DNA from: a virus
Direction: 5' to 3' (one strand)
Length of the DNA: 64,000 bases
IMG/VR virus record: IMGVR_UViG_3300043775_000755
Span: 1-64,000 of that record
The notes under the pieces: generated by a model
Told to the model about the DNA's origin: nothing
Databases searched by the model: none
Seen by the model: the letters and a program-made list of their open reading frames with translations, nothing else
Program-made: the position numbers and the translations under genes
In this document: positions 1 through 11,766 of the stretch, in pieces
Numbering within the stretch: the first letter of the stretch is position 1
How the letters are laid out: the number at the start of each line of letters is the position of its first letter

Positions 1-121
1 ACCCAATAGCAAATTCATCTGCTATTTTTATTAATTTATTAGTATGGTTATATTTTTCTGGCTCATCATTATAGCAATCCCATAATAAAGCGTGTGGTCT
101 AACTTGTTCTTCAAGTGTCAT
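1..121 (-). CDS. Hypothetical phage protein, 3' end off window
   Basis: An open frame starts with ATG at 121-119 and runs off the left edge, giving 40 visible codons beginning MTLEEQVRPHALLWDCYND. Its start overlaps the TGA of the upstream gene (ATGA at 121-118), a typical translational coupling in this phage. I do not recognise the family. The visible part is soluble and moderately acidic, with no signal peptide or membrane segment. It is the last visible gene of the transcription unit that begins at the promoter element near 1540. Confidence 0.6.
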   Translation of the reverse strand, partial: MTLEEQVRPHALLWDCYNDEPEKYNHTNKLIKIADEFAIG

Positions 122-741
122 AGGTTCTTGTTTAATAGTTCTTTTTCTTTTTTTAATTCATTACTCATATTACGATGTATTGTTCTAGTTGTACATCCTA
201 ATTCATTAGCTAACTTAACAACCGTGATTTTTACACCAGCATCGTTAAGATATAACATCATATCATATATATCATTCTCAGAGACTTTCTTAGTTTTACC
301 AATCATCTGTCCAACAATAGAAAGTTTTTCACTTAAACTCAATTTACATTTGTCATTGAATATAATCTTTCTAGTCTTATTAAACGGTGGAGTTTCTAGA
401 TCCTGAAGAGATACATCGTATATCATGCTTTGTAGTAAAGTTTCATTAACATTAAAGGTAACAAATCCGTTATTCTTATTTGCAATGAACTTAGCTAAAT
501 TAACAAACTGATCTTGATCCATAGAAGTATTAAGATACCATAAAACATATAGATGCCATTTCAAAGACTTATATGTGGGAATCTTAGCTTTACTTCTAAA
601 TAGATCATAACATTCATCAGTTCCATTTTCGTAGTAATCACCCCATTCAAACTTCTCAGTTGGTTTATCATTTATAGGAGATTGTTTATATATCACTCTT
701 GTTTTATTTAAGTATTCTAAGTTTCTTTGATACTGTGACAT
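118..741 (-). CDS. Putative helix-turn-helix DNA-binding protein
   Basis: This 207-residue protein has no recognised N-terminal domain. Its last 40 residues read like a helix-turn-helix: a helix ending VVKLANELGC, a turn, then a recognition helix starting TTRTIHRN, followed by a lysine- and glutamate-rich tail. A regulatory role is inferred from this segment only. Its start codon lies inside the left arm of a conserved hairpin (735-780), so translation or transcription of this possible regulator may be controlled by that structure. It is the only clear HTH candidate in the early arm, and so a candidate reader of the repeated DNA motifs found there. Confidence 0.7.
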   Translation of the reverse strand: MSQYQRNLEYLNKTRVIYKQSPINDKPTEKFEWGDYYENGTDECYDLFRSKAKIPTYKSLKWHLYVLWYLNTSMDQDQFVNLAKFIANKNNGFVTFNVNETLLQSMIYDVSLQDLETPPFNKTRKIIFNDKCKLSLSEKLSIVGQMIGKTKKVSENDIYDMMLYLNDAGVKITVVKLANELGCTTRTIHRNMSNELKKEKELLNKNL

Positions 742-1117: not shown

Positions 1118-1519
1118 CTATTCATCTGTTTTAAGATCACCGTAAACAAGTTGCCACTGAGTTAATAATATATCGTCTAATTCTTCTGTAATAGCATCGT
1201 TATTAAGACAGATGTTTTCTAACTCAATTCTATTATCATAGTTAACATTAAACTCAGCAGAGTCATAATCAATAACTTCTGTATTAGTACGATCTAAGAA
1301 GTATTCTAACTTGCTTCTAACAGCTGCATTGAACTCTTGGAACTTTTCCTCATCAATAAGATAAGCGCTTGGTTGCGGTAACATTTCGTGTATAGCATGC
1401 AGAGATTCAGTTCTTAAACTGGATAACAACGTTATTACGTCGTCTTTAGAAAAGATACTTGGATAAGCATCTATAGTTTTCGCTATTTGTACATCAAAAA
1501 GATCATTAATTTTTTCCAT
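1118..1519 (-). CDS. Hypothetical acidic protein, first gene of its unit
   Basis: This 133-residue acidic protein has no recognised domain, signal peptide or membrane segment. Its ATG lies about 20 bases downstream of the conserved early-promoter element at 1540-1582, which supports the start. An exact copy of the 10-bp word TGCTATACAC sits in the coding sequence (1388-1397), where it encodes A-I-H. Downstream genes follow with almost no spacing, so it leads a five-gene unit ending off the left edge. Confidence 0.7.
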   Translation of the reverse strand: MEKINDLFDVQIAKTIDAYPSIFSKDDVITLLSSLRTESLHAIHEMLPQPSAYLIDEEKFQEFNAAVRSKLEYFLDRTNTEVIDYDSAEFNVNYDNRIELENICLNNDAITEELDDILLTQWQLVYGDLKTDE

Positions 1520-1539
1520 TGTTTTTAGTTGTTTGTTTG

Positions 1540-1582
1540 TTTATATTAATATTATCAGTTGTTATTCGTATTTGTTTTGTAA
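1540..1582 (-). promoter_or_regulatory. Early promoter element E1
   Basis: On the minus strand this reads TTACAAAACAAATACGAA, a spacer, then a TGATAATATTAATATAAA box ending about 20 bases before the ATG at 1519. It matches eleven other elements in the left arm, each placed just upstream of the first gene of a unit. The first block is slightly divergent here (AAATACGAA instead of GAATACGAA). Confidence 0.7.
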
Positions 1583-1584
1583 GA

Positions 1585-1794
1585 CTATTTGTTTAGGTTA
1601 CCTCTATTTTGATGGACTTCTTTATCCATCTGTTCATAAAATTCTTTTATATCCCAGTTTGCTTTAACATAGTACTTTTTATCACAGATTTCATCACAAA
1701 ATAAATCTTGTGTAAAACCTGTGGTTATAATTTTACTGCAACAGTGACATAATGTTGCGCCACGTCCGTTGTTAAACTTGTGAATTGGTTTCAT
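1585..1794 (-). CDS. Small zinc-ribbon protein
   Basis: The 69-residue protein carries C16-x2-C19 (with an extra C18) and C33-x3-C37, a spacing that fits a single zinc-binding ribbon or knuckle. The rest is basic and polar. Such proteins often bind nucleic acid or host protein partners, but no specific function can be given. The start overlaps the upstream stop by one base (TAATG at 1796-1792). It is the last gene of the unit that begins at element E2. Confidence 0.65.
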   Translation of the reverse strand: MKPIHKFNNGRGATLCHCCSKIITTGFTQDLFCDEICDKKYYVKANWDIKEFYEQMDKEVHQNRGNLNK

Positions 1795-2039
1795 TAATCT
1801 ATCAATTTATCAATGACTATATTATGGTCGTTAAGTATCTCTGCTATTTCATCTGCCATTCTATATAGCGCATCATAAGCGTCAGGTATATTTTCGTCAG
1901 TGAATGTGTCGTAATGCCCTGATAAACGTTTACGTAGGTTTAATATATCGAACAAAGCACAAGCCATATCCATTGACTGGTTCACTCTATTAAACTCCAT
2001 TTGGTCATCGGGCAAATTAAATTCTAATATTGCTTTCAT
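1794..2039 (-). CDS. Conserved small phage protein, MKAILEFNLP type
   Basis: This 81-residue protein begins MKAILEFNLPDDQMEFNRV. I recall that opening from many small uncharacterised phage proteins in Bacteroidota and other hosts. It is acidic and probably helical after the first strand. Function is unknown. It is coupled to both neighbours, overlapping the metallophosphoesterase end by four bases and the zinc-ribbon start by one. Confidence 0.65.
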   Translation of the reverse strand: MKAILEFNLPDDQMEFNRVNQSMDMACALFDILNLRKRLSGHYDTFTDENIPDAYDALYRMADEIAEILNDHNIVIDKLID

Positions 2040-2713
2040 ATTACTAATGTATTACCGTTACTACTTAATTTTCCAAATTTTCCATCAGTCACCACCGATC
2101 CATTGCTAAAGAATGTATCACATACACTTAACTTTTGCATTCCAGCATTAACAACACCTCTACAGTTATGAATATGGCCAAATAAATGATATGCAGGTTG
2201 TACTTCTAATAACTTATTAAGTAAAGATTTATCACCGCAGCATTCCATTAAGCCTTCACGGGTTTCAGACTTGTCTAAAATACCCTTAGGAGGGCCGTGA
2301 GTAACAACAATATCGGTATCATTGTGTATAGCACTGCACCAGAATCGATCAAGTTTATTTCGATCTCTCATAAAGGACCAATTACCAAAGTTAGGTGTAT
2401 AAGGCGAACCAAATATTTTAATACCTTCAATGGTAACATAATCATTTTCTAGGTATATAATACCGTTGTCTTCAAAATCTTTTTTAGTTACTAGTTTCTT
2501 TTCAATGCTAGAATCATGGTTACCAGCTACATATATTTTATACTTAGGTGATAACTCTTTATACCAGTCAATGAATTCTCTAACCTCAGGCTCGTTATTG
2601 TATGGATCTCTAGGATTACTACAATCGCCAGAATGTATTACCATATCAATGCCTTTAGGTACTTTTAATAAGTCGTGATACGTGTGAGTATCGGAGATGT
2701 GCCATATTTTCAT
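2036..2713 (-). CDS. Calcineurin-like metallophosphoesterase
   Basis: All the metal-binding signatures of the calcineurin-like phosphoesterase family are present: D8-x-H10 in the opening ISDTH, G29-D30, G64-N65-H66-D67, a later T-H-G-P-P block, and G-H-I-H near the C terminus. The length (225) is normal for the single-domain family. Members hydrolyse phosphomono- or phosphodiesters using two metal ions; the substrate cannot be read from sequence. It sits in the middle of a seven-gene early unit. An exact TGCTATACAC copy lies in the gene at 2324-2333, encoding A-I-H. Confidence 0.9.
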   Translation of the reverse strand: MKIWHISDTHTYHDLLKVPKGIDMVIHSGDCSNPRDPYNNEPEVREFIDWYKELSPKYKIYVAGNHDSSIEKKLVTKKDFEDNGIIYLENDYVTIEGIKIFGSPYTPNFGNWSFMRDRNKLDRFWCSAIHNDTDIVVTHGPPKGILDKSETREGLMECCGDKSLLNKLLEVQPAYHLFGHIHNCRGVVNAGMQKLSVCDTFFSNGSVVTDGKFGKLSSNGNTLVI

Positions 2714-2901
2714 ATTTCTTCTTTTTTATAAAAATCTTTTTCTTCTAAAAAATCTCTAAACCCTTCAATAATTGTATTTTCATGGAATGTAACCCCAATT
2801 AATAATGCGTAGAATGTATCTATGTATTCACTCATTGTAACATCGTCACTATCAAATTCTGTTGTGTGTGTTTTTCCGTAACTTTCTATTGTAATTTTCA
2901 T
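2710..2901 (-). CDS. Small hypothetical protein (63 aa)
   Basis: A 63-residue acidic protein beginning MKITIESYGKTHTTEF, with a probable strand-rich N terminus and a charged C terminus ending KKEE. No family recognised. It overlaps the next gene by four bases (ATGA-type) and is overlapped by its own upstream neighbour in the same way, so translation is probably coupled. Confidence 0.6.
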   Translation of the reverse strand: MKITIESYGKTHTTEFDSDDVTMSEYIDTFYALLIGVTFHENTIIEGFRDFLEEKDFYKKEEI

Positions 2902-3092
2902 AGTTTATTATCTTTTTCTATTAATTCTAATATATAACTCCATACTTTTTGTTCAAATAAGTCTCGCTCTCTTAACTGAGCTTGTCTTTCTATATCCATT
3001 TTCCAATAGACATTAGGATCAGTGGTTATTTCCATCATTGCAGATAGTTTAGCCCATACTTTCATGCTTGCTGCTTCTTTAATTTCTTGCAT
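2898..3092 (-). CDS. Small hypothetical protein (64 aa)
   Basis: A 64-residue helical, charged protein. I use the ATG at 3092, which overlaps the upstream gene by 14 bases; a second ATG at 3065 would give a shorter form without overlap, and the sequence does not decide between them. No domain is recognised. It is part of the E2 unit. Confidence 0.55.
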   Translation of the reverse strand: MQEIKEAASMKVWAKLSAMMEITTDPNVYWKMDIERQAQLRERDLFEQKVWSYILELIEKDNKL

Positions 3093-3564
3093 AATCTTGT
3101 CTTGTTCTTATATTTTCGTTGCTATTTCGTACATTAACTTTTTCAGCTTCATAATAATTCCAGTAAGCAGTTACACTGTCACCGGGAACTTTGTATTCAT
3201 CAGGCATACATTGAGGCATTGGCGTAGCGCCGATGTTTAACATACCGCCGGGTACATTGCTTAATACATCTTCGCACTTCGTTATGGTTAAATGCTTTTT
3301 GCCGTAACGTTTAGTATACTCTTCGCCAAGCGCTAGCATGTGAAAGTATAGCCATGCGTAATTGTCAGCAGATTCTCGTGCCCATATAGCTGACGGATGA
3401 TTTTTATGGGTTGGTTTGTAAGGTACATCTGCATCATCGCCATCTAACACATGGTGTGCAGTACATAGTAATTGTGCTGATTCAAGGATCATTTTTACAA
3501 CGTGTTTATTGTACATCATTGTAGCTGCTTTGTCTGGATCTTTATCTAAATAGAATATGTTCAT
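3079..3564 (-). CDS. Conserved phage protein, MNIFYLD family
   Basis: This 161-residue protein opens MNIFYLDKDPDKAATMMYNKHVV and contains an H-P-S-A-x-W-x-R-E-S block, a combination I recognise from a widespread uncharacterised phage family. In databases it is sometimes labelled as pyrimidine-dimer-glycosylase-like, but I see nothing here that proves catalysis. The C-terminal 20 residues are asparagine- and arginine-rich and lack the tryptophan-rich tail I remember from relatives, so the end may be diverged. It is the second gene of the E2 unit. Confidence 0.65.
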   Translation of the reverse strand: MNIFYLDKDPDKAATMMYNKHVVKMILESAQLLCTAHHVLDGDDADVPYKPTHKNHPSAIWARESADNYAWLYFHMLALGEEYTKRYGKKHLTITKCEDVLSNVPGGMLNIGATPMPQCMPDEYKVPGDSVTAYWNYYEAEKVNVRNSNENIRTRQDYARN

Positions 3565-3566
3565 AG

Positions 3567-3968
3567 TTATTGTTTTAATAGTTCAGAAAATGTTTTACCG
3601 GTTTTGATTGCTTCTTTAAAGCTATTAGATCTACCCCATACTTCAGCTTTGCCGGTATGGCCGCTTTTACCGGTTACAGTATATTGTACATCACTGTTTT
3701 CAATATCGCATATTCTAAAGTCATCGTATAAAGGGCCGACTATAGGGCAATTGTTTTTAAAGAATACACAATGTGTATTAGGATCGATTTGTGGATTAGC
3801 TTTTAAAAACTTTTTTGTTTGGTTAAACAGTTTAGTTGCTTTTGATTTTAATACTCTGTCTTTGCAAAACCAATCGTAAAAGTTGTAGCACCATGATTCT
3901 TTGCCATCGCTATCTAAAAATATACCGTTTTCAAATGCTTCTAATTGTTCTGTTAGTGTAGTTTTCAT
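3567..3968 (-). CDS. Conserved hypothetical phage protein
   Basis: This 133-residue protein has tryptophan- and cysteine-containing segments (ESWCYNFYDWFC early, then THCVFFKNNCP). It is the first gene of a unit: its ATG is 14 bases past the conserved promoter element at 3982-4024. No known domain is recognised. The cysteine spacing is not a standard zinc site. Confidence 0.65.
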   Translation of the reverse strand: MKTTLTEQLEAFENGIFLDSDGKESWCYNFYDWFCKDRVLKSKATKLFNQTKKFLKANPQIDPNTHCVFFKNNCPIVGPLYDDFRICDIENSDVQYTVTGKSGHTGKAEVWGRSNSFKEAIKTGKTFSELLKQ

Positions 3969-3981
3969 AAGTTGTTTGTTA

Positions 3982-4024
3982 GTTACATTTATATTATCAA
4001 AGTTGATTCGTGTTCAGTCTGTAA
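3982..4024 (-). promoter_or_regulatory. Early promoter element E2
   Basis: The minus-strand sequence has TTACAGACTGAACACGAA, a short spacer, then TTTGATAATATAAATGTAAC ending just before the ATG at 3968. It matches the consensus of the other early elements. A TGCTATACAC word (4029-4038) lies four bases upstream of its outer edge, and the tmRNA 3' end is 19 bases upstream. Confidence 0.75.
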
Positions 4025-4042
4025 GACCGTGTATAGCATTAG

Positions 4043-4357
4043 TGGAGGCGGGGAGATTCGAACTCCCGTCCAAACAACTTTGGTTATTACAATTTATACA
4101 GCTTATGGGGTTAACTAGTCAGTTAACGTTTCCACCACTCTGTTTAATCTAACAGAGAAATCTTTCGATGTTTACGCTGCAATAAGCACCTCAACATCTG
4201 CGTTAATCAATGAAAAAACTTTGCTCATGTTAGCGTTAACTTGGTCAACATCTAACGAAATTACTTTGTTGTCATTTATTAAATTCACCTTAGTTTACAG
4301 TTATCTCTCTGGCTGATTGTAATAATTAGTGGTTGCCTGTCAAATCCAGTCGCCCCC
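4043..4357 (-). ncRNA. ssrA: Transfer-messenger RNA with extended tag frame
   Basis: The 5' end reads GGGGGCGACTGGATTTGACA and the 3' end carries a T-arm (GGGAG, TTCGAAT, CTCCC) followed by CGCCTCC, which pairs fully with the 5' GGGGGCG (one G-U). A ten-base helix P2 is perfect: 4316-4325 pairs with 4084-4093. Later hairpins CTCTGTT/AACAGAG and GTTAAC/GTTAAC resemble the tmRNA pseudoknot region. CCA is not encoded. The length (315) is short for tmRNA. The only long open frame at the expected resume position runs from GAC at 4273 to TAA at 4172: 33 residues, starting DNKVISLD and ending VEVLIAA, against about 10 in bacteria. No smpB is visible, so host SmpB is presumably used. Confidence 0.9.
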
Positions 4358-4362
4358 GGTTA

Positions 4363-4971
4363 TTAATGTATGATTAAACCTACTTTGTTAGTCTTGTTAA
4401 ACCATCTAGTAGCGTATAGATCTACTTCACTTGTATCAACATAGCCAAACTTAAGTAGCTCAGCGCTGTTACGGAAGATTCTTGCATGGCGATCGACTTT
4501 TAGATCAACCATGTGCTTTTGTTTGCCAGACATACTATAGATGATGTCGTAGTTTTCAGGTAAAGTTATTTCTTTAAGTAACTCAACCATATTGGTGTAA
4601 CTGTAAAACCTGACGTCGGGATTGTGTATAGCAATCTGAATCCACTTTTGTAGATATTCTCTGCTATAGTAATCGCCGGAGTCGTGAACCCTCACATACT
4701 GAGGCTTCTTCTTTTGAATTTCCGCATTCATCTCAACTATGAAATCTGATGTTTTGGTCAGTTCATATCTTCTCTCGAACGCAGGTTTTACATTACCCCA
4801 TATATATGCACCCTTTTTAGCATAACAGAACTTTACACACTCGTCAGCCATAGGACAAGTCAATTTACCAGATGCAGATTTATATGCGGGTATACCGAAG
4901 TTAAATACTTTAAGACCTAATACTTTACTAGTCTTTTTTAATTTGGAATTCTGAGTGAGTAAACTTGCCAT
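4363..4971 (-). CDS. Gp88-like phage protein
   Basis: This 202-residue protein shows the pattern I associate with the phage Gp88 family: a cysteine cluster (C-P-M-A-D-E-C-V-K-F-C-Y-A), then a V-R-V-H-D-S-G-D-Y block, with the rest predicted alpha/beta. The cysteine trio is reminiscent of metal or iron-sulphur binding, but the activity of the family is not known to me. It ends six bases before the tmRNA and is probably transcribed with it from element E3. Confidence 0.75.
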   Translation of the reverse strand: MASLLTQNSKLKKTSKVLGLKVFNFGIPAYKSASGKLTCPMADECVKFCYAKKGAYIWGNVKPAFERRYELTKTSDFIVEMNAEIQKKKPQYVRVHDSGDYYSREYLQKWIQIAIHNPDVRFYSYTNMVELLKEITLPENYDIIYSMSGKQKHMVDLKVDRHARIFRNSAELLKFGYVDTSEVDLYATRWFNKTNKVGLIIH

Positions 4972-4973
4972 AT

Positions 4974-5249
4974 TTAGTTAAATTTAATTGTTACACCATT
5001 AGCTTTGATTCTTAAGATATTTGATAAGCTAACCATACGGTAGCCGTCATCATCCATTGAGAATACTTTTAGTAAATTATGTTTTTCAGGACTATAAGCT
5101 AATCCACCGCCGGTAAGATTTTTAGCTACGCCAAATCTAGCGTTGAAAGATCTTGTTGTACCATCTTTTTTAATAAAGGTAATATTAAATATTTTACCTG
5201 TGTCGCCGACAAATTGGCGAATAAATTCATTTGTTTTTAAGTTTATCAT
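4974..5249 (-). CDS. WYL_2/DUF2693-like SH3-barrel protein
   Basis: The 91-residue protein contains R-S-F-N-A-R-F-G-V-x-K-x-L-T-G-G-G-L-A-Y, the hallmark I recall for the small phage family annotated WYL_2 or DUF2693, a predicted SH3-like beta barrel. Function is unknown; a ligand- or nucleic-acid-binding role is inference from the fold. It is the first gene downstream of element E3 (5262-5306) and is followed by the Gp88-like gene and the tmRNA. Confidence 0.75.
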   Translation of the reverse strand: MINLKTNEFIRQFVGDTGKIFNITFIKKDGTTRSFNARFGVAKNLTGGGLAYSPEKHNLLKVFSMDDDGYRMVSLSNILRIKANGVTIKFN

Positions 5250-5261
5250 GTTAATTTGTTT

Positions 5262-5306
5262 TAGTTACATTTATATTATCAATTATTATTCGTATTCGTT
5301 CTGTAA
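5262..5306 (-). promoter_or_regulatory. Early promoter element E3
   Basis: On the minus strand: TTACAGAACGAATACGAA, a short A/T spacer, then TTGATAATATAAATGTAAC, 13 bases before the ATG at 5249. This is close to the consensus of the family. It should drive the WYL_2-like gene, the Gp88-like gene and the tmRNA. Confidence 0.78.
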
Positions 5307-5316
5307 TAGTATTTGG

Positions 5317-5387
5317 GGATCCGGCAGGAATCGAACCTGCATCGCTCAAGTTATTATGAGTCATGTTGCCATTTTCACCACGTATCC
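5317..5387 (-). tRNA. tRNA-like gene, anticodon arm irregular (possible Met-CAU)
   Basis: The minus strand gives a 71-base cloverleaf candidate: acceptor GGATACG with CGGATCC (one mismatch), a D-arm with A-A-T-G-G-C, and a perfect T-arm (GCAGG, TTCGATT, CCTGC). The anticodon arm does not fold normally. A canonical Met loop CTCATAA is present but its flanks do not pair, while the alternative CTCA/TGAG stem leaves an eight-base loop. It may be a diverged or decaying tRNA. It ends the unit started by E4 and lies just upstream of E3. Confidence 0.55.
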
Positions 5388-5398
5388 ATTATTTATCA

Positions 5399-5641
5399 TC
5401 AATCGAGCAAAACCATATATGCATCAGGATTTGCACGTCTAAACCAATTCAATGCTTTAAGAAAGGTTTGATCTTGTTTGCCTATATATACACAACCCAT
5501 AATGAAGTCATACATACTTAATTCTGCAGGTGTTAAACCTATGCTGCAGCCGCTGAATGGATTAGTAACTTCGCCGCCGTCAGTGTATAGCATACCGTTG
5601 AACCACTTTGGTAACGGTGTATCTTTCTTTAAATTTATCAT
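5399..5641 (-). CDS. Conserved small phage protein (80 aa)
   Basis: The 80-residue protein has a G-G-E-V-T-N-P-F-S-G block and ends with W-F-R-R-A-N-P-D-A-Y-M. I recall this combination from small uncharacterised phage proteins. It is soluble, with no membrane segment. It is the third gene from element E4, followed directly by the tRNA-like gene. TGCTATACAC lies in it (5583-5592), here encoding L-Y-T rather than A-I-H. Confidence 0.6.
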   Translation of the reverse strand: MINLKKDTPLPKWFNGMLYTDGGEVTNPFSGCSIGLTPAELSMYDFIMGCVYIGKQDQTFLKALNWFRRANPDAYMVLLD

Positions 5642-5646
5642 AGTTA

Positions 5647-5889
5647 TTATTTATCTGCGGTTAAACATATTCTTATATTATCGTCGTATCCGGTATACCG
5701 GATTCCGGTAAGAGCGAAGGTGCTTTCGTTCCATTCTAATGTTACGCCTAATTTTTTTGCAATTTCCAATGTTTTACGGGTTAAGTCACCTTGAAATTCT
5801 AATCTATTATTCCATAAAGTTACTACATAAAATTGGTTCATATCATCACCTGTGATGGTATTTAATACTTCTAATTGTTCTGAAATCAT
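5647..5889 (-). CDS. Small hypothetical protein (80 aa)
   Basis: An 80-residue soluble protein beginning MISEQLEVLNTITGDD and rich in strands in its second half. No family recognised. Its start overlaps the stop of the upstream gene by four bases (5886-5889), so translation is probably coupled within the E4 unit. Confidence 0.6.
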   Translation of the reverse strand: MISEQLEVLNTITGDDMNQFYVVTLWNNRLEFQGDLTRKTLEIAKKLGVTLEWNESTFALTGIRYTGYDDNIRICLTADK

Positions 5890-6083
5890 TGTTTGTGTTT
5901 TTTAAGGGTTAAGTCGTCTACTGTATTTGTTATTTGTTTTACCATTTGTTCTAAGTAAGCTACAGTAAATATACCGCGTCCGCCACTTGCTTCGTGTTCA
6001 TTAATATCATTACTCCATTCTTTAAGTAATATTTGTAGCCCTTCTTTTAAGAACCACGCTTCTTGTCCGTTTAGTTTTTTCAT
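5886..6083 (-). CDS. Small hypothetical protein (65 aa)
   Basis: A 65-residue protein beginning MKKLNGQEAWFLKEGLQ, predicted mostly helical. It is the first gene behind element E4, whose inner edge is 15 bases from the ATG. No domain recognised. A glycine-rich A-S-G-G-R-G turn in the middle is the only distinctive feature. Confidence 0.6.
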   Translation of the reverse strand: MKKLNGQEAWFLKEGLQILLKEWSNDINEHEASGGRGIFTVAYLEQMVKQITNTVDDLTLKKHKQ

Positions 6084-6098
6084 AGTTGTTTGTTATTG

Positions 6099-6140
6099 GT
6101 TACATTATTATTATCAATTGTTATTCGTATCCAGTCTGTA
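6099..6140 (-). promoter_or_regulatory. Early promoter element E4
   Basis: The minus strand has CTACAGACTGGATACGAATA then TTGATAATAATAATGTAACC. It overlaps the last 27 bases of the upstream gene (6114-6395), so the phage keeps this element even at the cost of coding overlap. It precedes the genes at 6083, 5889 and 5641 and the tRNA-like gene. Confidence 0.72.
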
Positions 6141-6395
6141 GAACTGATCTAACACTAGTTTCTCAAGCTTCTCTAATAATTCATCATCAAGATCATCATC
6201 ATCAAAGATAATAGTTATTTGTTCATCACGTTCGAAGTCAGTGCCTACTACAGTTAATATACCTTCGTAAGTTTCGCCGTCCATTGTTACCGCGCCACCA
6301 GGTAATGTAATTTCTTCAGCATTTAAAGTTACATCAAAATAATATTCGTCGAATGTCCTGCTAGAGGAATGGCTTATGTCTACTATATCTCTCAT
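6114..6395 (-). CDS. Hypothetical acidic protein (93 aa)
   Basis: A very acidic 93-residue protein with a run of aspartates near the middle (F-D-D-D-D-L-D-D-E). It is predicted strand-rich first and helical last. Acidic early proteins can be DNA mimics or host-protein inhibitors, but this is only a suggestion. Its start overlaps the upstream stop by one base. It is the last gene of the E5 unit, and its 3' end overlaps element E4. Confidence 0.62.
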   Translation of the reverse strand: MRDIVDISHSSSRTFDEYYFDVTLNAEEITLPGGAVTMDGETYEGILTVVGTDFERDEQITIIFDDDDLDDELLEKLEKLVLDQFYRLDTNNN

Positions 6396-6631
6396 TACTG
6401 TATTACTTTTATAAATTGTCCGTTTTTATCGTATAATATGTTTAATTCTAATTCATGATCTACTGTATCGATCATTGCGTTAATATCTTGGAATTGTAAA
6501 CCAGCTGAAAATTCTTGCGCTGTTAGTTTGGAACCGGCACAGTGTATAGCATAGTCATACAAGAGTTGTGGGTTAATATTTTTAGCATTTCGCATTGCAA
6601 TCCATCTACTTTTTATTTCGTCTTTTACCAT
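6395..6631 (-). CDS. Small hypothetical protein (78 aa)
   Basis: A 78-residue soluble, mostly helical protein. No family recognised. TGCTATACAC occurs in the gene (6542-6551) and encodes A-I-H. Its start overlaps the end of the 58-residue gene upstream by 26 bases, and it is coupled to the downstream gene by a one-base overlap. Confidence 0.6.
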   Translation of the reverse strand: MVKDEIKSRWIAMRNAKNINPQLLYDYAIHCAGSKLTAQEFSAGLQFQDINAMIDTVDHELELNILYDKNGQFIKVIQ

Positions 6632-6782
6632 AGCTTAATTCTAATCTTAAATAATTATTGTATACTCTGTTATATCCTTCAACCATTTTTTCATTGCTGC
6701 AATATTCTACATTTTGTATTGTATTCCGCATCCATGAGTTAAACTTATCAGTTTCTTTAATTGCTAATTGTTCTATAGTCAT
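6606..6782 (-). CDS. Small hypothetical protein (58 aa)
   Basis: An open frame from the ATG at 6782 (two bases after the upstream gene) to TAG at 6608-6606 encodes 58 residues beginning MTIEQLAIKETDKFNS. It fills an otherwise empty 150-base gap in a packed unit. It is helical and charged, with a basic C terminus (Y-G-K-R-R-N-K-K). No family recognised. Confidence 0.55.
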   Translation of the reverse strand: MTIEQLAIKETDKFNSWMRNTIQNVEYCSNEKMVEGYNRVYNNYLRLELSYGKRRNKK

Positions 6783-6783
6783 A

Positions 6784-7071
6784 TTAATCTACTTTAATAA
6801 ACCAAGTTAATAACTCTTCTTTAGTCGCAAATACAAACACTTCAGGGTTCTGTCTTAACGCCTGTATTATATACTCTCTTTTAGTTGGTCTTGTCCATGC
6901 ATACGATAAAGATAAGTGACTAAGGTCCATTGCGCCAAATTCATTATCATTCTTTTTAACAATTATATTCTTTCTACCGTTTTCCCATTTAACACCAACA
7001 CTGCTACTATCGGTTATTGTATTCACATCTACAATATCTGTATTATTGTCAAAATTTACTACTTTTCTCAT
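6784..7071 (-). CDS. Hypothetical protein (95 aa)
   Basis: A 95-residue soluble protein beginning MRKVVNFDNNTDIVDVN, with a mixed strand/helix pattern and no recognised domain. It lies two bases after its upstream neighbour and two bases before the next gene, in the middle of the six-gene E5 unit. Confidence 0.6.
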   Translation of the reverse strand: MRKVVNFDNNTDIVDVNTITDSSSVGVKWENGRKNIIVKKNDNEFGAMDLSHLSLSYAWTRPTKREYIIQALRQNPEVFVFATKEELLTWFIKVD

Positions 7072-7072
7072 A

Positions 7073-7321
7073 TTAATATTTTTCTTTAATTTCTGTTAAT
7101 GTTAGGTTATAATGATTCCATAATTTTGTTCTACTGAATGCACTTGCTTTTGCCCCGTAAGAAGACTTCATCTTAGTCTTGACTTGCTTATAATCATCGC
7201 TATTAAACTGTTTGCACATGCCATCAGTATTTACTGCATTGATCCTGTTTGCTCGGTTACGTGCTTTCTTTTCTTCAAGATATTGACACGCTTCTTTCAT
7301 ATTGTTCGCTATTACTATCAT
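7073..7321 (-). CDS. Small basic hypothetical protein (82 aa)
   Basis: I choose the ATG at 7321, which overlaps the upstream TAA by one base (TAATG), rather than the ATG at 7363 that would overlap the upstream gene by 43 bases. The 82-residue product is strongly basic (lysine, arginine) and helical at the N terminus, which would suit nucleic-acid binding, though no motif proves it. Confidence 0.58.
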   Translation of the reverse strand: MIVIANNMKEACQYLEEKKARNRANRINAVNTDGMCKQFNSDDYKQVKTKMKSSYGAKASAFSRTKLWNHYNLTLTEIKEKY

Positions 7322-7509
7322 TAGTCTTTGATTATATAGGTTAAACCGTTTAAATTGAACCACTCAGAATATCCGTCTTGATCGTCGTCATTAGTTATAA
7401 ATCCGAACTTTGACGGTAGATCACCGACAAGATATGGCGTGTATAGCACACCGTTTAGTTTAATAAAATTGTTCTTTAAAAACTTGATTGATTTTTTTTC
7501 TTTGTTCAT
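7321..7509 (-). CDS. Small hypothetical protein (62 aa)
   Basis: A 62-residue protein with a basic N terminus and an acidic middle (N-D-D-D-Q-D-G). It is the first gene after element E5 (7525-7567). TGCTATACAC lies at 7439-7448 and encodes L-Y-T. No family recognised. Confidence 0.6.
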   Translation of the reverse strand: MNKEKKSIKFLKNNFIKLNGVLYTPYLVGDLPSKFGFITNDDDQDGYSEWFNLNGLTYIIKD

Positions 7510-7524
7510 AGTTGTTTAGTATTG

Positions 7525-7567
7525 GTTACATTATTATTATCAAACTTAATTCGTATTCGTTCTGTAA
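7525..7567 (-). promoter_or_regulatory. Early promoter element E5
   Basis: Minus-strand TTACAGAACGAATACGAATT followed by TTGATAATAATAATGTAACC, 16 bases before the ATG at 7509. It should drive six genes, down to the one that ends at 6114. Confidence 0.77.
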
Positions 7568-7572
7568 GAGTA

Positions 7573-7734
7573 TTATAAGGCTTCAATGTCGGTGCAGTCG
7601 TAGTCATCATAGTCTAATATAATTTCTCCTTTGCCGTATTGTTCGCTAACAATATCAACCGCTGATTGTTCGTCGATCGCATCGATGTATAGCACTCTAG
7701 ACGCTGTCTCTGTAATCCTAATTCTATATTCCAT
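7573..7734 (-). CDS. DpnD/PcfM-like small protein
   Basis: A 53-residue frame from the ATG at 7734 to TAA at 7575. It begins MEYRIRITETASRVLYID and has an I-I-L-D-Y-D-D-Y block near its end. This matches the pattern I remember for the small DpnD/PcfM family found on plasmids and phages, whose function is unknown to me. A one-mismatch TGCTATACAT word lies within it. It is the last gene of the E6 unit. Confidence 0.6.
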   Translation of the reverse strand: MEYRIRITETASRVLYIDAIDEQSAVDIVSEQYGKGEIILDYDDYDCTDIEAL

Positions 7735-7735
7735 A

Positions 7736-7909
7736 TTATTGTTGTTTAATTAATTTCGCTTTCCACACGCCTACTCTATTGTTTACTACGTCGATATTCG
7801 GGTTAGTTAAATATCTATAATGACTGATTTCATTGAGTGCTTTGTAGTTGTACACTTCAATATATAACCCTGTACCGATAGTTTTGTTAACTATATATCC
7901 TTCTTTCAT
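7736..7909 (-). CDS. Small hypothetical protein (57 aa)
   Basis: A 57-residue frame from ATG at 7909 to TAA at 7738-7736, one base before the next start. It begins MKEGYIVNKTIGTGLYIEV, with a probable beta-hairpin N terminus and a basic C terminus. No family recognised; support is the packed position in the E6 unit. Confidence 0.55.
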   Translation of the reverse strand: MKEGYIVNKTIGTGLYIEVYNYKALNEISHYRYLTNPNIDVVNNRVGVWKAKLIKQQ

Positions 7910-7912
7910 AAC

Positions 7913-8137
7913 TTAATCTTTACTTGTTAATGTACCCTCAAAAAATGAGTGGATTGCTTTATCTTCTGCTTCTCTAATAGCCTTGTATTTCTCGACATTA
8001 GTTACTTTCTCGTTTAACCATTCTTCAATATTTGCTCTGCTATCAGAGTGATATTCTTGATTCATCCACTTTGATCGGTACATAGCTTGTGTAGTACCGT
8101 CACGTAATGTTCTTGTATATTCAATTATATCTTCCAT
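7913..8137 (-). CDS. Small hypothetical helical protein (74 aa)
   Basis: I place the start at the ATG at 8137, one base after the stop of the upstream zinc-ribbon gene. An ATG further upstream (8236) would read through that gene in another frame. The product begins MEDIIEYTRTLRDGTTQ and is highly charged and helical. No domain recognised. Confidence 0.58.
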   Translation of the reverse strand: MEDIIEYTRTLRDGTTQAMYRSKWMNQEYHSDSRANIEEWLNEKVTNVEKYKAIREAEDKAIHSFFEGTLTSKD

Positions 8138-8138
8138 A

Positions 8139-8243
8139 CTATTCTTCATCTTCATAGTTATTCCAATCAGCGTGCTCGCCACACTCAGCGCAGATACCTG
8201 TATCTTCCATCCATTCGTAAGACCCACAACAATCACTTTCCAT
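8139..8243 (-). CDS. Tiny zinc-ribbon protein (34 aa)
   Basis: A 34-residue frame from ATG at 8243 to TAG at 8141-8139. It contains C5-C6 and C18-x2-C21 with a nearby histidine, a compact zinc-knuckle pattern, and is strongly acidic. Although very short, it sits exactly in a gap between two genes of the E6 unit, and its cysteine pairs argue against chance. Confidence 0.55.
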   Translation of the reverse strand: MESDCCGSYEWMEDTGICAECGEHADWNNYEDEE

Positions 8244-8251
8244 AGTTTTCT

Positions 8252-8467
8252 TTATTTAATATTAGCGTTAATTCTTTCCCAATAGGTTAAACCCTCTCTT
8301 GTAGTAGAAAATGTAAATGCACCAGTAATACCATCTTCTTTAATATCTACATCACTTTGCAGCCATTGATCGATAAAATCGACATTGGCGTTACCATCGA
8401 CTATTCTAGCGATAATCTTTCGTCTAAGCGCCTCATCTAGACCGCGCATCCATTCTATTCTAGTCAT
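8252..8467 (-). CDS. Small phage protein with T-x-x-G-x-x-Y-W motif
   Basis: A 71-residue protein whose C terminus reads F-T-F-S-T-T-R-E-G-L-T-Y-W-E-R-I. The same pattern (S-R-T-R-Q-G-A-S-Y-W) closes the gene at 10287-10490, and I recall F-x-W-x-x-T-x-x-G-x-x-Y-W as common in small phage proteins of unknown role. The two genes in this window look like diverged paralogs. Confidence 0.6.
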   Translation of the reverse strand: MTRIEWMRGLDEALRRKIIARIVDGNANVDFIDQWLQSDVDIKEDGITGAFTFSTTREGLTYWERINANIK

Positions 8468-8469
8468 AT

Positions 8470-8583
8470 TTACTTGTTTTTATAGGTTAATTTATTTGTC
8501 ACTGTAATTGCAGTATTCATAGACTGCATTTCTTGGGTGTAAAATATATACTCATCTTCCGTAATGCCATAGTAATCTTGCAT
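8470..8583 (-). CDS. Small hypothetical protein (37 aa)
   Basis: A 37-residue frame from ATG at 8583 to TAA at 8472-8470, beginning MQDYYGITEDEYIFYTQEM. The conserved promoter element E6 ends 18 bases upstream, the same distance as for other first genes, which is the main evidence that this is a real gene. No family recognised. Confidence 0.55.
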   Translation of the reverse strand: MQDYYGITEDEYIFYTQEMQSMNTAITVTNKLTYKNK

Positions 8584-8601
8584 AGTAATTAGTTTTTGTT
8601 A

Positions 8602-8644
8602 GTTACATTTATATTATCAAATCACTCTCGTATTCGTTTTGTAA
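8602..8644 (-). promoter_or_regulatory. Early promoter element E6
   Basis: Minus-strand TTACAAAACGAATACGAGAG then TTTGATAATATAAATGTAAC, upstream of the 37-residue gene at 8583. It should drive six small genes. The 63 bases between it and the next gene upstream hold nothing else recognisable. Confidence 0.77.
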
Positions 8645-8707
8645 AGGTGGATAGATGTTTAATCGATTTTAAAGAGATAATGTTATAATCCCTGACTTCA
8701 CTAAGCC

Positions 8708-8977
8708 TTAGTCATTTCGGTATGAATGGTAAGCCCATATAGCTTGGTTGATACGGTCGAGCTCGCATTTGCCTCCGAGGTAGCGGTGTATAGCATTGTA
8801 GAACTTAGTTAGTTCGACGCAATTCTTGCAAAAGAACCTTTTAAACTCGTCGAGTTCTTCGCCTTGCATGAAATTTAGTCCGACAATATCGTCTCCTACT
8901 TTTTCGATGTAGACATAGCGGTCATCTTGGTTGCACCACACGATCGTTTTACTCTCAATTAATTCATATTCGCTCAT
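8708..8977 (-). CDS. Hypothetical protein (89 aa)
   Basis: An 89-residue protein with three cysteines, two of them in F-F-C-K-N-C, and no standard zinc motif. It is the only gene in its unit, read from element E7. TGCTATACAC lies at 8786-8795 and encodes A-I-H. G+C content is visibly higher here than in neighbouring genes. Confidence 0.6.
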   Translation of the reverse strand: MSEYELIESKTIVWCNQDDRYVYIEKVGDDIVGLNFMQGEELDEFKRFFCKNCVELTKFYNAIHRYLGGKCELDRINQAIWAYHSYRND

Positions 8978-8991
8978 AGTAGTTGTTTTTA

Positions 8992-9034
8992 GTTACATCA
9001 TTATTATCAAATTGGTCTCGTGTTCGTTTTGTAA
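8992..9034 (-). promoter_or_regulatory. Early promoter element E7
   Basis: Minus-strand TTACAAAACGAACACGAGAC then TTTGATAATAATGATGTAAC, 15 bases before the ATG at 8977. The 10-bp word is present four bases beyond its outer edge (9039-9048), in the orientation opposite to the in-gene copies. Confidence 0.76.
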
Positions 9035-9070
9035 GCGGTGCTATACACGTTTACCGTGTAAGATCGTTGA

Positions 9071-9124
9071 AAAAGGTGACATTAGGGTGTTATACTAGAT
9101 AATAGTAGGCTAACGTCGCTATTT
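9071..9124 (-). repeat. Conserved hairpin element, copy 2 (terminator-like)
   Basis: Arms GACATTAG (9078-9085) and CTAACGTC (9110-9117). On the minus-strand RNA the arms pair as GACGUUAG/CUAAUGUC with one G-U, and TTTTT follows, as in an intrinsic terminator. It lies in the 290-base gene-free stretch between the E8 and E7 units. Confidence 0.68.
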
Positions 9125-9204
9125 TAGTTGAATTTAACTGTGTTGTAGGACGGAGTCTACTCTTCCGGCGCTATCTCAAAGCCAGGCTAATATAGTGTAT
9201 AGCA

Positions 9205-9260
9205 AAAAGAGTGACATTAGCTGCTTATAACTACTAATAGCAGGCTAACGTCGCACTTTT
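9205..9260 (-). repeat. Conserved hairpin element, copy 3 (terminator-like)
   Basis: The most complete copy. AAAAAGAGTGACATTAGC (9205-9221) and GCTAACGTCGCACTTTT (9244-9260) form a long stem, extended by TGC/GCA around the loop. It directly follows the gene ending at 9268 in the transcribed direction, and TTTTT follows it, so a terminator for the E8 unit is likely. The 10-bp word (9195-9204) abuts it. Confidence 0.7.
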
Positions 9261-9267
9261 CTACATA

Positions 9268-9480
9268 TTATTTCATATCTTCATCATATACAAACTTACC
9301 AGTTTCGATCCAGTGTAGAATTTCTTCTTTGTATGCGTTTTCGACATGCATTGTTACATCAGGATACTCCCTATCTTGTTTGTGTATTGTGTATTGCTCA
9401 CGACTTAGATCCGAGTTGAACCCTTCCGAGTGTATAGCACCTGTCATCAGGTACCATACAAAGATTATTTTTGTTATCAT
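9268..9480 (-). CDS. Hypothetical protein with hydrophobic N terminus (70 aa)
   Basis: A 70-residue protein beginning MITKIIFVWYLMTGAIHSEG, a short hydrophobic stretch that could be a signal peptide or membrane anchor, followed by a charged soluble part. The 10-bp word (9430-9439) encodes A-I-H at the end of the hydrophobic segment. It is second in the E8 unit, followed by hairpin copy 3. Confidence 0.6.
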   Translation of the reverse strand: MITKIIFVWYLMTGAIHSEGFNSDLSREQYTIHKQDREYPDVTMHVENAYKEEILHWIETGKFVYDEDMK

Positions 9481-9483
9481 ATC

Positions 9484-9627
9484 TTATCTTTCTTGTTCTA
9501 GTATAAATCTGATTAAGTTACTTAGTTTGATTTGATCTGAATAGCTCAGGATCATGAATTCAGTTGTACGTGTGTACTTGTAGCCGTGCTTAGTGGCTAA
9601 TTTGTAAGCTAGATTTGTTAATTGCAT
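9484..9627 (-). CDS. Small hypothetical protein (47 aa)
   Basis: A 47-residue frame from ATG at 9627 to TAA at 9486-9484. It begins MQLTNLAYKLATKHGYKY and is basic and helical. Element E8 ends 14 bases upstream of the ATG, and the downstream gene begins four bases after the stop; both support it. No family recognised. Confidence 0.55.
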   Translation of the reverse strand: MQLTNLAYKLATKHGYKYTRTTEFMILSYSDQIKLSNLIRFILEQER

Positions 9628-9640
9628 AGTTGTTTATTTT

Positions 9641-9684
9641 AGATTCATTATTATTATCAATTGTACTTCGTATTCGTTCTGTAA
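9641..9684 (-). promoter_or_regulatory. Early promoter element E8
   Basis: Minus-strand TTACAGAACGAATACGAAGT then TTGATAATAATAATGAATCT, upstream of the 47-residue gene. A one-mismatch copy of the 10-bp word (9685-9694) directly abuts its outer edge. Confidence 0.77.
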
Positions 9685-9714
9685 ATGTATAGCATTTTTG
9701 TTTGAGCTTAAAGC

Positions 9715-10032
9715 CTACTTTTCAGTAGACTCTAAGACTTCAATTTTAGCTAGATGTCTGACATTACTTGGCATATCAGTAGATTGTGACCAGTATTGTC
9801 TTTTAATCCAACATGGCATTATTGATAGCTTTGGAAGCATAACATTCAGAACTTCATCGTGATTGTAAGTTACTTTCTGATTTTTATTGTTGATGAAAGT
9901 TATAACTTGATTTCGGCCTAACCAATTCTTTCTGACTACAAAGTTAGCTCGTTCGATCGGTGGATAGATCAAAGCCAATTCTTCAGTTGATAATTTAGCG
10001 ATCGCTTGTTGTAATAATTCTTGATTGTTCAT
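9715..10032 (-). CDS. Hypothetical protein (105 aa), two tandem promoters
   Basis: A 105-residue protein with a helical N terminus and a basic central part (V-V-R-K-N-W-L-G-R-N-Q). No family recognised. It is a single-gene unit preceded by two early elements (E9 and E10) about 80 bases apart with no gene between them, so it may be the most strongly expressed early gene. Confidence 0.62.
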   Translation of the reverse strand: MNNQELLQQAIAKLSTEELALIYPPIERANFVVRKNWLGRNQVITFINNKNQKVTYNHDEVLNVMLPKLSIMPCWIKRQYWSQSTDMPSNVRHLAKIEVLESTEK

Positions 10033-10058
10033 AGTTATTTAATTTAAGTTGTTATTTA

Positions 10059-10100
10059 TTTACATTATTATTATCAAATTCAATTCGTATTGGTTTTGTA
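10059..10100 (-). promoter_or_regulatory. Early promoter element E9
   Basis: Minus-strand TTACAAAACCAATACGAATT then TTTGATAATAATAATGTAAA. The spacing to the ATG at 10032 (27 bases) is longer than for the other elements. It is the inner one of a tandem pair. Confidence 0.74.
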
Positions 10101-10140
10101 AGTTACTTTATTTTTATTTAAATTAGTTTGTTACTTTGTT

Positions 10141-10184
10141 ACTTACATATATATTATCAAATTGACCTCGTGTTTAGACTGTAA
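10141..10184 (-). promoter_or_regulatory. Early promoter element E10, outer of a tandem pair
   Basis: Minus-strand TTACAGTCTAAACACGAGGT then TTTGATAATATATATGTAAG. No gene starts between it and E9, so both appear to serve the gene at 10032. A near copy of the 10-bp word (10186-10195) abuts its outer edge. The 90 bases beyond, up to 10286, are richer in G+C and contain a small GAGCT inverted repeat but no gene. Confidence 0.72.
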
Positions 10185-10286
10185 ATGCTATACGCGTTGC
10201 GTAGCTCGCAAGCTCGCACGGTCCCGGCTGCCAATTCCATCGAGTGGAGTAAAAAGATCCCGATTAAAGGACCGAATTCCGTTATG

Positions 10287-10490
10287 TTAGTTCAGTGCTG
10301 GATCGAACTCCTCGGAGTCAACCCATGCCCAGTATGAAGCTCCTTGCCGAGTCCTGGACCATGCACACATGCCGTTGATCTCAGCATTAGTGTCTATGCA
10401 ATGTTGCACGTGCTCTTGGCCGAATTGCCATCTTGTTTCCTCGATCATGTCGAGTCTCGTTTGTGGATGTAAATCATTTAATCTTTTCAT
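10287..10490 (-). CDS. Small phage protein with T-x-x-G-x-x-Y-W motif (67 aa)
   Basis: I start this gene at the ATG at 10490, which overlaps the stop of the 37-residue gene upstream (ATGA at 10490-10487). A longer frame from 10574 would read through that gene in another frame. The C terminus has W-S-R-T-R-Q-G-A-S-Y-W, matching the gene at 8252-8467, so the two look like paralogs. Function unknown. Confidence 0.58.
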   Translation of the reverse strand: MKRLNDLHPQTRLDMIEETRWQFGQEHVQHCIDTNAEINGMCAWSRTRQGASYWAWVDSEEFDPALN

Positions 10491-10600
10491 GCGATGTATT
10501 CGTTTAGTTGGTTTAATTGTTCTTGAGTTAGGCTTGATCTCCACGCTTGTACGTAGATCTCTTCTTCTTGACATAGTAATTCTAATTCTTGATCTGACAT
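10487..10600 (-). CDS. Small acidic hypothetical protein (37 aa)
   Basis: A 37-residue frame from ATG at 10600 to TGA at 10489-10487, beginning MSDQELELLCQEEEIYVQ. Element E11 ends 11 bases upstream, and the next gene starts in an ATGA overlap with its stop, so both flanks support it. It is glutamate- and glutamine-rich and helical. Confidence 0.58.
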   Translation of the reverse strand: MSDQELELLCQEEEIYVQAWRSSLTQEQLNQLNEYIA

Positions 10601-10610
10601 TTTGTTTGTT

Positions 10611-10656
10611 TTTATATTCATATATATTATCGATTGTACTTCGTATTCTTATTGTA
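10611..10656 (-). promoter_or_regulatory. Early promoter element E11
   Basis: Minus-strand CTACAATAAGAATACGAAGT then ATCGATAATATATATGAATA, 11 bases before the ATG at 10600. It is slightly diverged in the first block and lies immediately after the stop of the 35-residue gene upstream. Confidence 0.68.
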
Positions 10657-10658
10657 GA

Positions 10659-10766
10659 TTAACTTTCATATTCTAATTCGATAGATATTAGAACATTGAT
10701 ATATTCTAACAATACTTGATCATTTGTAAGTTTTTTGATTTCTTGTAATTTTTGTAGATTTGTCAT
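10659..10766 (-). CDS. Small hypothetical helical protein (35 aa)
   Basis: A 35-residue frame from ATG at 10766 to TAA at 10661-10659. It begins MTNLQKLQEIKKLTNDQV and looks like one long helix with leucine and isoleucine spacing. It is the first gene of the left arm, behind E12, facing the control region. No family recognised. Confidence 0.52.
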   Translation of the reverse strand: MTNLQKLQEIKKLTNDQVLLEYINVLISIELEYES

Positions 10767-10790
10767 TTTATTTAATTTAAGTTGTTATTT

Positions 10791-10834
10791 AGATTCATAT
10801 ATATTATCAAATACACTTCGTATTCGTACTGTAG
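10791..10834 (-). promoter_or_regulatory. Early promoter element E12
   Basis: Minus-strand CTACAGTACGAATACGAAGT then TTTGATAATATATATGAATC. It is the outermost early element and borders the gene-free control region. One near and one exact copy of the 10-bp word follow at 10839-10848 and 10851-10860. Confidence 0.74.
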
Positions 10835-11600
10835 GAAATGCTATACGCGTTGCTATACACGCTTCGCGCGTGCTCCGCACGTAATCGTATTACGTATCGT
10901 ACGAATCGGGAACGGGAACACACACACAGGAGTCCTGCCCACGGGAACGGAATCATGCAGGAATCATACACGGAACATGATGCCATATAACGCGCACTAA
11001 CACGCATTACGCCAGATCCTGGACGTATACGTACAACATAATGCCACATAACGCATATTCGTACGAGTTAATGCCATATCGTACACATATTCGTACGTAA
11101 TAGTGCCACATAACGCACATAACCACACCACACGGAAACGTATCGTATTACGTACATATCGTGTCATATCGTACATAATAACGTACATACGCACGAGATC
11201 ATAACATACGCACGGCAGCAGATCATAACAATCACACGGCATACGTACACATACATACACATGACACACACACATACACGTACGGCAGCGACACACACAC
11301 ACACCAGCACACACACCGACACGGCGCCAAGCACCAGCATGCCACACCAGCACCAGCCGACACCAGCCAGGAAAGCCAGACCGTTTCCAGGATTCCCAGG
11401 GAAAACCCAAACCGTTTTGGGAAACCCGAAAAAAGGAAGGCACCCCCACGGAAACCGATTCAATTCCGTTTACGAATTCGGGAAATGAAATACGCGTGTA
11501 GCCCCTTAATTATATATATCTGACAATACACATTCAACACCACCACTGACTACGCCGGCGCTACTAAAAAATTTTTTATTATATTTTTTTTTACAAGGTA
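10835..11600 (+). other. Gene-free control region, iteron-like and C/A-rich; origin candidate
   Basis: About 650 bases (10860-11500) have a composition unlike the rest of the window: C and A dominate the plus strand, TACG and CGTA recur, and CA runs appear near 11265-11335. A TGCCA-headed unit followed by ATAACGCA or ATATCGTA recurs at 10981, 11042, 11072 and 11104, and CATACGCACG recurs at about 11195 and 11212. A CCCAAA/TTTGGG hairpin lies near 11406-11422. Frames in it are cysteine- and valine-rich artefacts. It separates the divergent arms, as a replication origin, regulatory centre or packaging region would. Confidence 0.5.
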
Positions 11601-11652: not shown

Positions 11653-11706
11653 AGAATAGCGACATTAGCTAGTTATATTATATAGTAGTAGGCTAACGTC
11701 CCTGTT
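11653..11706 (+). repeat. Conserved hairpin element, copy 4
   Basis: Arms GACATTAGC (11661-11669) and GCTAACGTC (11692-11700), with TTTTT following on the plus strand. Its loop shares TAGTAG with copy 2. Placed between the control region and the first late gene, it could block transcription entering either arm. Confidence 0.62.
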
Positions 11707-11766
11707 TTTACGATGCGTAAGATTTAGGTTTGTTGCGTGAGTATATAACTATACTAAAATTAAGAT

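Follow-up and report, generated by a model that had tools for sequence, protein, structure and literature searches.

A short word dispersed along the early arm

The window, that is the whole 64-kb stretch analysed here, belongs to a viral record of 68,280 bp and carries on its minus strand an arm defined as early by its gene content (replication, nucleotide metabolism and a sigma factor), which makes its early expression putative. A repeat finder revealed in this arm a family of 12 same-strand early promoters (family D1), with TTACAGNACGAATACGAA followed by a -10 element of the TTGATAATAT type. These repeated elements were used to delimit the transcription units, nine of which bear genes, from position 10100 leftwards.

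The same arm is dotted with a 10-bp word, TGCTATACAC (Table 1). Thirteen exact copies are present in the window, 12 of them within 1388-10860, and the full record contains 15, including those at 64039 and 67868. Dinucleotide shuffling (100 shuffles) gave a mean of 0.13 copies per 64 kb and a maximum of one, and the reversed word, used as a control, has no copy in the full record. Two near variants, TGCTATACAT and TGCTATACGC, were counted into the same set. Eight of the 12 arm copies lie inside genes, all in the sense orientation, and are read as A-I-H in six cases and as L-Y-T in two. The four others are intergenic: two are sense, and those at 9039 and 10851 are inverted with respect to the minus-strand transcription and adjoin promoter elements. 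Each of the nine gene-bearing units harbours one or two sense copies (P=0.007 when 12 copies are placed at random). The first-pass annotation had described 12 copies, about one per transcription unit, eight of them in genes in two reading frames and a single orientation, with intergenic copies at promoters, some inverted. All of this was borne out by the counts and translations, and the dispersed word is confirmed as a real feature that extends beyond the window.

Table 1. Word copies, early promoter elements and candidate binding proteins in the window
Feature	Position	Strand	Basis
HTH protein, 207 aa, candidate word-binder	118-741	-	HTH_11 in 19/19 homologues; AF2 and fold matches at residues ~148-206
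Word in gene 1118-1519, sense, A-I-H	1388-1397	-	exact count and translation
Early promoter, TTACAGNACGAATACGAA - TTGATAATAT type	1516-1581	-	repeat family D1
Word in gene 2036-2713 (metallo-phosphoesterase), sense, A-I-H	2324-2333	-	exact count
Early promoter family	3958-4023	-	
Word directly 3' of tmRNA end, 40 bp ahead of next promoter's -10, sense	4029-4038	-	
Word in gene 4363-4971, sense, A-I-H	4624-4633	-	exact count and homologue alignment
Early promoter family	5240-5305	-	
Word in gene 5399-5641, sense, L-Y-T	5583-5592	-	exact count
Early promoter family	6075-6140	-	
Word in gene 6395-6631, sense, A-I-H	6542-6551	-	exact count
Word in gene 7321-7509, sense, L-Y-T	7439-7448	-	exact count
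Early promoter family	7501-7566	-	
Variant TGCTATACAT in gene 7573-7734, sense	7685-7694	-	variant class, 42 observed vs 7.0 expected
Early promoter family	8578-8643	-	
Word in gene 8708-8977, sense, A-I-H	8786-8795	-	exact count
Early promoter, inverted word upstream	8968-9033	-	
Inverted word, 38 bp upstream of -10 of promoter 8968-9033	9039-9048	+	exact count
Intergenic sense word, immediately past hairpin and T run	9195-9204	-	exact count
Word in gene 9268-9480, sense, A-I-H	9430-9439	-	exact count
Early promoter family	9618-9683	-	
Variant TGCTATACAT, sense, end of one transcription unit, abutting next promoter	9685-9694	-	
105-aa clade-specific protein near early-arm start, alternative candidate	9715-10032	-	
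Early promoter family	10035-10100	-	
Early promoter, inverted word upstream	10118-10183	-	
Variant TGCTATACGC, inverted, 35 bp upstream of -10 of promoter 10118-10183	10186-10195	+	
Early promoter family	10591-10656	-	
First early promoter, two inverted words upstream	10768-10833	-	
Variant TGCTATACGC, inverted, 38 bp upstream of -10 of promoter 10768-10833	10839-10848	+	
Inverted word, second of two-copy array with 12-bp spacing	10851-10860	+	exact count
Word within giant late gene 47630-56608 (2992 aa)	53751-53760	+	exact count

Clade restriction and nucleotide-level selection

Relatives were gathered by using the 202-aa protein encoded by gene 4363-4971 as a protein query, which returned 62 loci; 34 relatives were analysed as whole or largely complete records. 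The word occurs in 33 of 50 related records (whole-record count), and its reversed form gave five matches in total. In a tree built from terminase, portal and other core proteins, it is found throughout one deep clade, a group of uncultured tailed phages, and is absent in the sister clade. One subclade of the deep clade (G019, G030, G040, G042) has few copies or none, and no convincing substitute word was detected there. The word is also absent from the nearest named record, MW202828, and from Elemovirus, the best TerL matches (61% and 43%, respectively). The only likeness found to phi14:2 and other crAss-like phages is a match of 38 bp within the tmRNA gene, and the nearest cultured relatives are phages of Flavobacteriia. 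In the papers searched, the word gave incidental sequence matches only. When all viral contigs were scanned for paired words, those with further exact words were almost without exception members of this clade, which points to a phage factor rather than a host factor. A host factor had been considered and was set aside: multi-word arrays are limited to this clade, and bacterial contigs gave scattered single matches.

The shape of the site was derived from 188 non-redundant contexts, in-gene sense and intergenic copies together. It reads not-C, then TGCTATAC, then mostly A/G and mostly C/T. Eight positions are strict, A or G being accepted at position 9 and C or T at position 10, and no extension beyond 11 bp and no partner element emerged from these contexts. 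The 9G and 10T variants are enriched in the clade. None of the single mismatches at positions 1-8 is clearly enriched, their overall density being 20.6/Mb in the clade and 30.6/Mb in the sister clade. A Markov model had suggested a depletion of one-mismatch forms (29 vs ~82); since it shrank in this sister-clade comparison, the claim is limited to the mismatches being not enriched.

The coding of the two tripeptides, the residues of homologues and the turnover of positions strongly support the proposal, first made from the eight in-gene copies, that the word is selected as DNA or RNA and not as protein. A-I-H occurs 65 times in the early proteins of the clade, and in 61 of these cases the underlying DNA is exactly the word, compared with 7 of 14 in late proteins. 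Its rate is 60 per 100,000 in early and 4.8 in late proteins, and it is never found in sister-clade early proteins. The same holds for L-Y-T, coded as the word in 25/32 early vs 3/53 late occurrences. In the 202-aa protein, nine genomes share an aligned word read as A-I-H, where almost every other genome shows A-K, A-N or the like. Some word positions are common to relatives, and others differ between phages within the same gene families (ERF, HTH, thymidylate synthase and others). Positions turn over while the gene keeps a copy, so the word is retained per gene or per unit, not per position. Two observations had been named as able to overturn the initial proposal, namely relatives lacking the word at homologous positions and a background accounting for its count. 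The relatives do possess the word, in many cases at positions that are not homologous, and no background model accounts for it. The word is thus under nucleotide-level selection, even where the protein sequence changes.

Orientation by context and promoter linkage

In the early genes of the clade, exact copies are sense in 85 of 92 cases and antisense in seven (P=4e-18). Late genes contain 10 sense and 11 antisense copies across 2.7 times the length, often in the giant late gene, in counts that include some short spurious ORFs inside the early arm; per unit length, early genes carry over ten times as many copies as late ones. When the variants at the last two positions are included, 247 R-Y words are found in the clade, 113 of them sense in early genes and 84 intergenic. 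Antisense early copies recur in the thymidylate synthase gene of four genomes. The sense in-gene copies are spaced more evenly than random (CV 0.75 vs 0.96, P=0.006), and predicted RNA accessibility at the word shows no difference from controls.

Intergenic copies behave differently according to their orientation. A -10-like element lies within 85 bp downstream of 48 of the 53 inverted copies, as against 8 of the 33 sense ones, for a background of 20%. Independent array loci, fetched separately by the array pattern alone, led to the same picture: the element is on the TGC side in 55/72 clade arrays and on the far side in 1/72. In unrelated contigs, the corresponding figures are 2/55 and 1/55. 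Within an array the copies follow one another head-to-tail, most start-to-start intervals being 9-14 bp or 21-25 bp, and the distance from the promoter-nearest copy to the -10 varies from 29 to 46 bp. A linked copy is missing from many promoters of this family. The orientation is indeed split by context, sense in genes and inverted at promoters, so that the TGC end is turned towards RNA polymerase in either case.

A putative regulator, its rivals and known systems

The HTH protein encoded at 118-741 had been pointed out initially as a possible binder of the word. It is a genuine HTH protein: Pfam HTH_11 is recognised in 19/19 homologues, the HTH is C-terminal, and a structure search gave generic HTH matches only (Z up to 6.2, residues ~148-206). 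Its gene lies near the sigma factor gene in many relatives. No tie to the word emerged: the protein persists in the word-losing subclade and was not detected in the word-rich genome G044, where this part of the sequence appears damaged. The L5-type immunity repressor of Cluster A mycobacteriophages combines an HTH with a stoperator domain, binds its site as a monomer and stops elongation in one orientation only; it was not matched when PDB sequences were searched with a profile. An alternative candidate is the 105-aa protein, which is clade-specific and has a confidently predicted fold with no clear structure match and no known relatives. In phylogenetic profiles, no family tracks the word cleanly. 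As to lysogeny functions, no integrase (PF00589) was found in 38 records and a single sub-threshold ParA-type match (PF13614) in 30, many records of both sets being possibly incomplete; no HTH_3 protein was seen in the related records searched.

We infer from these patterns that a protein would bind the word, obstruct RNA polymerase and set the timing of early expression. A regulator encoded by the phage clade may use TGCTATAC-R-Y as its asymmetric binding site on DNA. Inverted copies upstream of early promoters, single or in head-to-tail arrays, would act as operators. The sense copies, one or two per unit and mostly in-gene, would act as polar, stoperator-like roadblocks to the polymerase. 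Because the TGC end is directed towards the polymerase in both settings, the protein could use a single surface to meet it both when transcription starts and while it elongates. Most probably, the word would serve to switch off early transcription when late transcription begins, given that the word is confined to early units and that integrase, ParA and HTH_3 proteins were not found. We regard such a combined operator and polar roadblock for early shut-off, recognised by a phage-encoded regulator, as a moderately probable reading. Several observations count against it: a simple polar block predicts neither the unbiased late-gene copies nor the recurrent antisense copies of thymidylate synthase, no family follows the word, the HTH candidate outlives it, and the spacing between word and -10 is not constant. 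A broader proposal is offered tentatively. In a phage without recognisable lysogeny genes, a stoperator-like network might time shut-off instead of immunity, the same protein face being used at promoters and in genes and a DNA signal dictating amino acids in many early proteins.

The word could instead act in RNA, as UGCUAUACRY in early mRNAs that would be cut by a phage endoribonuclease, or paired by a small RNA bearing the inverted arrays, and thereby silenced. The strictly sense early-gene copies, at least one per unit, the strict 8-nt core and the copy immediately 3' of the tmRNA would fit such a signal, as would the tolerated changes, A to G at position 9 and C to T at position 10, which are those that G-U wobble permits. 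However, wobble changes within the core are not enriched and the word shows no accessibility preference. The inverted copies are tied to the upstream side of promoters, the arm's first promoter among them, so that RNA models account for the in-gene copies only, and this explanation seems unlikely. The promoter copies lie immediately upstream of the promoter core, a frequent position for activators, and the phage encodes a sigma factor. They might therefore recruit polymerase to early or middle promoters, the in-gene copies being sinks or looping partners. Yet the many promoters of the same family devoid of a linked copy argue against an activator or accessory site, which would also leave unexplained why each unit keeps one or more sense copies even though amino acids are changed thereby; we hold it to be quite improbable.

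A polar replication, recombination or packaging signal along the arm, of the Chi or KOPS kind, would agree with the polarity and even spacing of the copies and with their presence in the giant late gene. The excess in early over late genes, the lack of polarity in late ones and the promoter linkage of inverted copies make it very improbable. Chance, shared ancestry or protein conservation could be invoked for the positions common to relatives, but these explanations were rejected and retain a negligible probability: the shuffles, the reversed-word control, the turnover of positions, the other residues of wordless homologues and the coding of the tripeptides all speak against them.

If the regulator-site reading is true, polar protein roadblocks inside coding sequences would not be peculiar to temperate actinobacteriophages, and phages without recognisable lysogeny genes could time expression by such means. 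The word is a clear example of a 10-bp DNA signal taking precedence over protein sequence across many genes, a point to bear in mind when selection on phage proteins is interpreted. Little is known of how transcription is controlled in relatives of Flavobacteriia phages, and the word with its putative regulator forms a pair that can be tested there.

Other short signals share some of these features. The T4 RegB nuclease cuts early mRNA at GGAG near ribosome-binding sites. As with RegB, a short word in early mRNAs could mark shut-off, but the present one is longer, lies in the middle of genes and is also associated with promoters, where its orientation is reversed. Chi and KOPS are likewise short, strict, oriented signals inside genes; they mark whole replichores, whereas the word marks mainly early units and promoters.

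The closest known system is that of the Cluster A mycobacteriophages (L5, Bxb1, the TipsytheTRex repressor), whose stoperators had served as the analogy in the first-pass annotation. In these temperate phages, which have a known repressor, L5-type sites, operators among them, point the same way with respect to transcription; the motif is 13-14 bp long and most copies occupy short gaps between genes (PMC9283540, PMC6550527). The analogy breaks down at several of these points. The word is 10 bp long, sits mostly inside genes, where it imposes amino acids, and is mostly inverted at promoters, often in head-to-tail arrays, whereas Cluster A operators are oriented as the stoperators are. Unlike in the temperate Cluster A phages, which have an integrase or parABS, no lysogeny gene of the families tested (integrase, ParA, HTH_3) was found in the related records searched, many of them possibly incomplete. 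What holds is the general design: in both systems, many dispersed and asymmetric sites with a group-restricted consensus are mostly oriented with transcription inside the units, and some of them are placed at promoters.

Atypical word copies and a dispersed motif of the sister clade

Copies of the 10-bp word are also observed in the following two genes. The giant late gene holds one copy in each of about eight genomes, among which both orientations occur. In the thymidylate synthase gene, the word lies antisense at the same aligned position in four phage records (G007, G021, G025 and G026, e.g. G007:535), a position where G041 and G049 carry a sense word instead. Sister-clade genomes (records G011, G013, G015, G016, G020, G032 and G033) contain another dispersed 12-13-mer, TTGTTCACAC(T/C)CATC, present in 2-5 copies per genome and found behind stop codons, within a 412-aa gene and, in antisense, in the giant late gene. 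This motif is possibly the counterpart of the word in that clade.

Candidate terminators and sigma factor

The GACATTAGC...GCTAACGTC hairpins, some of which are flanked by T runs on both sides, look like bidirectional terminators. The intergenic stretch between the two arms is CACA-rich and of low complexity. A phage sigma factor matching phrog_351 is found throughout the word clade, and is a candidate for reading the GATAATAT promoters.

Coordinates of the features (window positions unless a record or locus is named)
Feature	Position	Strand	Details
Hairpin, four copies	729-784, 9070-9125, 9205-9260, 11653-11708		~50 bp
tmRNA gene	4042-4357	minus	33-aa tag
tRNA-like gene	5315-5387		four-base anticodon (ataa) as reported
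Inter-arm stretch	10860-11500		
Giant late gene	47630-56608		2992 aa
Sigma factor gene	record G000 66956-67720 (= locus L064:3956-4720)		phrog_351, E=1.6e-18

tmRNA gene

The word is located directly 3' of the end of the tmRNA gene, which has 38 bp in common with Cellulophaga phage phi14:2.
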